Shown here one piece after another: positions 81-660 of a stretch of DNA of 32,683 nt (positions are counted from its first letter, which is position 1; each line of letters opens with the position of its first letter). Source of the stretch: Candidatus Gastranaerophilales bacterium (lineage in GTDB: Bacteria > Cyanobacteriota > Vampirovibrionia > Gastranaerophilales > Gastranaerophilaceae); NCBI GenBank assembly GCA_944326615.1, contig CALVEO010000019.1, positions 1 to 32,683 on the forward strand, in the 5' to 3' direction. A program made the position numbers and the translations under genes. Under the pieces are notes generated by a model, which worked only from the letters and a program-made list of their open reading frames with translations, ran no database searches and was not told the origin of the DNA.

Positions 81-103
81 TAGGTTGGGGTTTCTACCCC
101 AAC
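81..103 (+). repeat. REP-like hairpin upstream of the RAYT gene
   Basis: The core GTTGGGGTTTCTACCCCAAC (84-103) forms an 8-bp stem with a TTCT loop. The full 23 nt from 81 to 103 recur as an exact reverse complement at 388-410, inside the adjacent transposase gene. Hairpins of this type are the known substrates of REP-associated tyrosine transposases; that this one is the substrate here is inference from adjacency. Confidence 0.75.
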
Positions 104-129
104 AAAAATATTTGTTATAAAATTAAACA

Positions 130-660
130 ATGAACTACAGACGTGCTTTTATTCAAAACAGTTATTTGCATTTAATTGTTGTCTCTTATAAAAGAAAAAG
201 CATATTTGCAGATAATATTGAATTACTAAGACATGCCTTTAAAAATGCAAAACAATTCTTTGACTTTGAAATTATTGCAATTTGTGTTTTGCCAGACCAT
301 ATACATGTAATACTAAATCCTAAAAATATCGAAGAATATCCCAAAATTATTACATCAATAAAATATTACTTCTCTAAAAATTATAATGTTGGGGTAGAAA
401 CCCCAACCTACGGTTATGTTAATAAAGGCGAAAAAGGTATATTCCAGAGAAGATTTTTTGAACATACGATTGCCTCAGAAGAAGAATTAAACAATCAAAT
501 TAATTACATTCATTACAATCCTGTAAAACATGGACAAGTAAATAAAGTAAAGGACTGGCAGTATTCTTCTTTTCACAAATTCGTAAAACTGGGTTTATAT
601 GATAATGATTGGGGCAGCGAAAAAGACATTGAAAATATCAGAGATTTGGATTTTGAATAG
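130..660 (+). CDS. REP-associated tyrosine transposase (Y1_Tnp, IS200-like family)
   Basis: 176 aa, a usual length for single-domain Y1 transposases of the RAYT branch. The HUH-type metal site is the H-I-H of DHIHVIL (about residues 56-62). The conserved YIHYNPVKHGQV block near residues 137-148 is typical of the family and carries a candidate catalytic tyrosine. These enzymes nick and join single-stranded DNA at hairpins rather than using terminal inverted repeats. A 23-nt hairpin lies just upstream (81-103) and its exact reverse complement lies in frame in the gene (388-410), encoding VGVETPTY. No transposon ends or target duplication are seen, so this looks like a resident RAYT gene and not a complete IS. 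The start has no Shine-Dalgarno; TAAAAT (118-123) sits 6 nt before the ATG, suggesting a leaderless message. The catalytic core looks intact. Confidence 0.88.
   Translation: MNYRRAFIQNSYLHLIVVSYKRKSIFADNIELLRHAFKNAKQFFDFEIIAICVLPDHIHVILNPKNIEEYPKIITSIKYYFSKNYNVGVETPTYGYVNKGEKGIFQRRFFEHTIASEEELNNQINYIHYNPVKHGQVNKVKDWQYSSFHKFVKLGLYDNDWGSEKDIENIRDLDFE
388..410 (-). repeat. Inverted copy of the REP-like hairpin inside the RAYT gene
   Basis: This segment is the exact 23-nt reverse complement of 81-103. It is read in frame by the transposase gene as VGVETPTY, so the mobile or regulatory hairpin is part of the coding sequence. Confidence 0.75.

Follow-up and report, generated by a model that had tools for sequence, protein, structure and literature searches.

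A REP inside its own RAYT gene in Gastranaerophilales: probable relocation of the inverted partner into the coding sequence

A canonical REPtron consists of a RAYT gene flanked by REPs that are inverted relative to each other (Nunvar et al. 2010, PMC2817692). In-frame REPs within RAYT genes are already published as well: passages of Quentin et al. 2018 (PMC6006769) describe them in tnpAREP genes of subclass 2.4, at a site other than the one reported here, and passages of PMC3733652 mention REPs within other genes too. Palindromic repeats translated within proteins are also known as Rickettsia palindromic elements (RPEs), which occupy many unrelated genes (passages of PMC3733652, and general knowledge), whereas here the host is the cognate transposase. 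As for the enzymes, E. coli TnpAREP recognises REP, not inverted REP, and contacts it through helix alpha3 and the surroundings of strand beta4, as stated in parts of PMC8266576. Elements of the IS200/IS605 type (IS608, ISDra2) share with the RAYT described below the Y1 HuH fold and, by analogy, hairpin-guided single-strand chemistry; unlike its inner REP, their end hairpins flank the gene.

The window, i.e. the whole stretch of DNA analysed, comprises 32,683 nucleotides of the uncultured gut bacterium Candidatus Gastranaerophilales bacterium (contig CALVEO010000019.1, assembly GCA_944326615.1). Its relevant features are the following.

80 to 103, + strand: left REP, GTAG foot and hairpin GTTGGGGT-TTCT-ACCCCAAC; marks the left edge of the unit that relatives share
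130 to 660, + strand: gene of a RAYT (REP-associated tyrosine transposase) of Y1 HuH type, 176 aa, with NF047646, Y1_Tnp and 4er8 matches
298 to 306, + strand: HuH motif codons H57-I58-H59
388 to 411, - strand: inner inverted REP, a perfect reverse complement of the left REP; its + strand forms codons 87-94 (VGVETPTY)
505 to 507, + strand: codon of the presumed catalytic Tyr126 in YIHYNP
661 to 706, + strand: tail of about 45 nt after the stop, common to several, not all, relatives; possible right end, judged by eye and ragged

An earlier note, made from the sequence of the window alone, had named the gene a RAYT, and this holds: it matches NCBIfam REP_Tyr_transpos (NF047646) with 132.4 bits against a cut-off of 80, and Pfam Y1_Tnp with 47.7 bits. 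The predicted model (pLDDT 90.4) has the TnpAREP fold, its best solved relative being E. coli TnpAREP with REP (4er8; E 1.9e-13, TM 0.75). H57, H59, Y126 and the downstream N130 are invariant in 70 aligned proteins; from what is known of the RAYT family, we take Tyr126 to be the catalytic residue. Residues 85-109 form a loop between helix 67-84 and strand 110-114 of the model, which places codons 87-94 in the predicted alphaC-beta4 loop, and VGVETPTY aligns to a gap in E. coli TnpAREP. With subclass 2.4, the gene shares a REP that lies within the gene, keeps the frame and stands between the HuH and Tyr motifs. It differs both in the site, which in subclass 2.4 is between beta3 and alphaC, and in the motifs, NH[IFV]H, WQ and YIxNNP there versus DHIH, FQ and YIHYNP here, so that neither the motifs nor the insertion site given for that subclass in passages of PMC6006769 are those of the window RAYT. 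Subclass 2.2, compared by motif description, agrees in YIHYNP and in extra alphaC-beta4 residues, and differs in DHLH and WE.

The note had also reported that 81-103 and 388-410 are perfect reverse complements of 23 nt. The identity is in fact one base longer: all 24 nt of 80-103, GTAGGTTGGGGTTTCTACCCCAAC, recur in exact reverse complement at 388-411, with some 284 nt between the two copies. Folding reproduced the claimed 8-bp stem in each copy, closed by a 4-nt loop, and the hairpin is a real REP with the GTAG foot at 80-103; the second copy does encode VGVETPTY, as codons 87-94 of ORF 130-660. The 20-nt hairpin occurs in the window at these two places only, even when up to three mismatches are allowed, while 100 dinucleotide shuffles gave 0.00 matches on average, by which chance was rejected. 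A left REP with GTAG foot, an inverted partner and coevolution of RAYT and REP are traits of canonical REPtrons. In contrast to these, no inverted REP was found within 160 nt past the stop, the right partner lying inside the coding sequence at 388-411, and REP copies are few in most genomes. The genome search that the note had proposed found the 24-mer at three exact places in the 1.96 Mb (78 contigs) of the own genome, two of which are the upstream and the inner copy; a fourth copy of the hairpin carries one mismatch, and a looser REP pattern gave seven places including the pair, unlike the abundance of REPs that marks a canonical REPtron. The left REP starts 79 nt from the contig end.

Across the family, the exact 24-mer is present in 41 of 191 genomes, and five of them (G141, G070, G171, G003 and G155) contain no exact copy beyond the two upstream of and inside the RAYT gene. 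Two genomes rich in exact 24-nt REPs were also seen: G041 with 70 copies, yet without a RAYT match in the family protein search, and G164 with 35 copies, where the RAYT matches listed are broken pieces only. On contig C9 (locus L006) a REP and an inverted REP adjoin, as in REPINs. Locus L006 holds a single inverted REP at 1059-1083 and a mixed-type REP/inverted-REP pair at 1497-1554; the REPs of this locus stand near two genes that by eye resemble dapB and asd.

We then compared the layout of relatives. The search with the window protein matched 76 of the 191 family genomes; these matches, relatives and 60 further loci, all selected for their resemblance to the window protein, gave 110 loci with a match, 98 distinct gene sequences and 83 full-length genes without stops. 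The other 15 of the 98, fragments and broken genes among them, stand outside the counts, and the comparison also omitted L063 (Acidithiobacillus) as well as duplicate own-genome loci; near-identical proteins (L073/L074 from the same genome; L020/L053) were counted apart. The named relatives are mostly Candidatus Gastranaerophilales, and nearly all named genomes of the order are metagenome assemblies. A hairpin was accepted with a perfect stem of at least 6 bp and a foot GT[ACG][GA] or [CT][TGC]AC, decayed copies thus being scored as absent.

An inverted REP inside the gene was found in 34 of the 83 distinct full-length RAYTs of these Gastranaerophilales-type genomes, always as a 20-nt hairpin plus foot; since orientation is inherited within a clade, its being inverted in all 34 does not amount to 34 independent facts. 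An inverted REP downstream of the gene accompanied 33 of 49 RAYTs without the inner copy versus one of 34 with it (Fisher p 6e-10, kinship ignored). Among seven genes nested in the clades but devoid of the inner hairpin, three had a downstream inverted REP, versus the same one of 34 (p 0.012). To judge from the sequences, the inner copy appears to substitute for the downstream inverted REP of other RAYTs of the order. The feature was seen in none of the 30 best-scoring loci of Cyanobacteriia (386 genomes searched), in none of the 30 best-scoring loci of Pseudomonadota (249 genomes searched) and nowhere in the phage records searched. Three pseudomonadotal loci (L156, L161 and L175) possess an inner hairpin that matches no flanking REP.

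The inner hairpin is thus probably the inverted partner that completes the RAYT's REP pair on the right; it would have been shifted into the coding region and kept there as substrate. While in the canonical locus one REP precedes the gene and its inverted copy follows it, in the present clade the inverted copy would have come to lie in frame in the alphaC-beta4 loop, which may tolerate eight residues, and the downstream copy would usually be gone. Both copies would be kept alike because a single RAYT has to recognise each of them, one per strand, as a paired substrate. Occasional events between the two REPs might drop the N-terminal half of the gene, giving double-foot hairpins before C-terminal remnants.

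On a tree built without the loop columns, presence of the inner REP required 9 changes versus 26.6 with shuffled labels; it occurs in 27 of the 33 rows that make up one well-supported clade, in 6 of 7 of another and in L037. Support for the deep branches is weak, so that the tree fixes neither the direction of the REP move nor whether there was one origin or more. A lone insertion into one gene was rejected, as the inner REP marks clades and 34 of 83 genes. Of the note's suggestion of an insertion tolerated in a loop, the loop site, absent from the E. coli relative, stands, while the lone insertion gives way to clade-wide inheritance. In the large clade, the inner hairpin has decayed in six intact genes (L016, L022, L027, L028, L032 and L050), from which it follows that the hairpin is not essential in the short term; in the smaller clade, L111 is without it.

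Both an upstream and an inner REP were present in 31 rows; L078, in which they differ in length, was excluded, leaving 30 pairs. Within these, the two 24-mers of a gene differ at no, one or two positions in 19, 8 and 3 cases, respectively, the mean mismatch being 0.47 per 24 for own pairs versus 4.92 between loci. For the 18 distinct combinations the mismatches sum to 13 versus a shuffled mean of 95.2, and none of 20,000 shuffles was as low. These shuffles ignore relatedness; the match nonetheless holds across several REP types (GTTGGGGT.., GTTGGGCA.., GTCGGATT.., GTCGGCTT.. and GTCGGGCT..). The foot follows partly: an inner CGAC accompanies an upstream GTCG in L029, L030 and L035, with L026 and L056 (upstream GTAG, inner CGAC) as exceptions. 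In canonical relatives, upstream and downstream REPs are identical in 16 of 28 pairs.

Such complementarity might also serve control at the RNA level, with the REP in the 5' untranslated part pairing with the inner copy and looping out the start codon. The minimum-energy fold of 76-415 does pair both copies (-84.5 kcal/mol versus a shuffle mean of -50.8, z -7.4), but any exact inverted repeat would fold alike, and the partner in canonical relatives lies behind the gene. In addition, of the 13 mismatches in the 18 combinations, four give G-U pairs and nine break the long-range pair, while the local hairpins all stand, a comparison that leans one way because hairpins were required for detection. 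We regard this explanation as very unlikely.

The alignment of homologues, also proposed in the note, bears on what determines the segment. The loop peptide shifts with the REP type (VGVETPTY, VGQVCPTD, VGLVNPTY, VGLVKPTY). Fourfold sites differ far less inside the unit than outside it: 72/690 (0.104) versus 1593/3327 (0.479) in a 16-row subset, and 24/366 (0.066) versus 1088/2357 (0.462) in a 13-row subset. In the former, third-position differences along the gene reach their minimum in the window of codons 87-94; in the latter, the minimum lies in the windows that begin at codons 82 and 83, adjoining and overlapping the unit. The peptide tracks the REP and fourfold sites are constrained, so the eight codons are fixed by the DNA target, not by the protein. 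Although VG and PT recur in every peptide type seen, ordinary protein conservation was rejected, as the peptide varies with the REP while third positions are frozen; the chance that the segment is ordinary conserved protein sequence, or mere coincidence, is negligible. A different link between peptide and REP could be envisaged, in which the REP-encoded peptide itself touches the REP, so that a change of REP would rewrite its reader in the same step; a GTAG foot goes with ...PTY and a GTCG foot with ...PTD. This is conceivable because the segment lies between alphaC and beta4, a region that contacts REP in E. coli TnpAREP (parts of PMC8266576), and we give it very little credence.

The reading frame would also restrict the length of the target. 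The inner unit measures 24 nt in 34 of 34 genes, and the upstream unit does so in 30 of the 31 rows that have an inner copy versus 7 of 34 without one, where it ranges from 19 to 25 nt. A unit whose length is not divisible by three cannot form in situ within the gene without breaking the frame, and L022, which combines a 23-nt REP type with a decayed inner hairpin and a downstream inverted REP, agrees with this lock. In the loop of L057/L078, a further forward REP and inverted-REP-derived pieces are present in frame, leading to a protein of 199 aa; judging by this sequence, REP pieces accumulate in the RAYT loop.

The resemblance of the copies could alternatively be neutral: a REP may have landed in a tolerant loop, and the inverted copies may have been equalised by template switching or conversion rather than by selection. 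Correction between inverted repeats is a known process, a loop such as that of L057/L078 accommodates additional REP pieces, and intact genes with decayed inner copies exist. Against conversion, identity halts at the REP borders: beyond the 24 nt, the two copies are unlike (identity 0.26 on the GTAG side and 0.43 on the other, shuffles 0.39). Moreover, fourfold sites are low across whole clades, and in L025 one stem pair is flipped between the copies (T-A versus A-T) while both hairpins are intact, which fits selection for the hairpin and not copying. We consider the neutral explanation unlikely.

As for the borders of the unit, the 34 copies show about chance identity upstream of GTAG (0.23-0.36 per place, the last base 0.43 with T in 21/34), and homology among them begins at GTAG, giving a sharp left end. 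The upstream and inner REP together enclose no more than the gene's N-terminal half (324-373 nt), and the pair therefore cannot form the ends of a unit containing the whole gene. The inner copy as right border of a moving unit was likewise rejected, homology continuing to the stop and in several relatives about 45 nt past it. This tail (661-706) also follows L014, L018, L044, L050, L056 and L066, possibly a right end without a REP; other copies diverge sooner. A search of 33 congeneric genomes for an empty site of the copy L020 (G155) yielded no clean case; both outer flanks of the site occur in G701, with 0.72 kb of other sequence between them versus 1.67 kb in G155.

Some broken relatives look like deletions between two REPs. 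Several C-terminal gene pieces start at or near the inner REP, which is weak evidence on its own because alignments tend to break at a variable loop. The hairpins are better evidence: in L116, GTCG, a nearly perfect hairpin and CGAC precede the C-terminal half; in L060 a mutated hairpin has GTAG before and CTAC behind it; L058 contains a REP-like sequence and an inverted REP 14 nt apart; and L106 (601-890) is an N-terminal RAYT half whose end is a hybrid hairpin fused to a forward REP's right arm. Deletion of this kind was proposed as the source of double-foot REPs by Quentin et al. (passages of PMC6006769). Since the stems have the same order in both copies, slippage without RAYT could yield such remnants too.

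The note had further suggested self-targeting or autoregulation, i.e. that the RAYT might bind or cut its own gene through the template-strand inner REP and so limit expression or copy number. By sequence the inner REP is a cognate site, and the remnant genes resemble products of events between two REPs. Nevertheless, seven clade-nested genes manage without the inner hairpin. As for binding to mRNA, the inner site is there present in its inverted form, a form not recognised by E. coli TnpAREP (parts of PMC8266576), which argues against such binding at this place. We regard self-targeting or autoregulation as possible but quite unlikely.

Compared with subclass 2.4, the relocated partner proposed here is new in its site, its exact covariation, its taking the place of the downstream REP, the fixed length and the presumed deletion products. 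The abstract, passages and section 23 of PMC6006769 contain nothing on covariation with flanking REPs or loss of downstream REPs. Searches of open-licence PMC articles listed, by title or abstract opening, none that describes an inner REP covarying in this way in a RAYT, which is weak evidence of absence.

The locus represents a natural case in which the target of a mobile element and the protein presumed to act on it share the same 24 bases, and in which target length is set by the reading frame. It supplies numerous natural enzyme-target pairs that carry their own record of coevolution. The remnant genes suggest a route by which double-foot REPs, whose origin Quentin et al. only proposed, might arise, and if the inner copy is a site in use, self-limitation of RAYTs would become directly testable.
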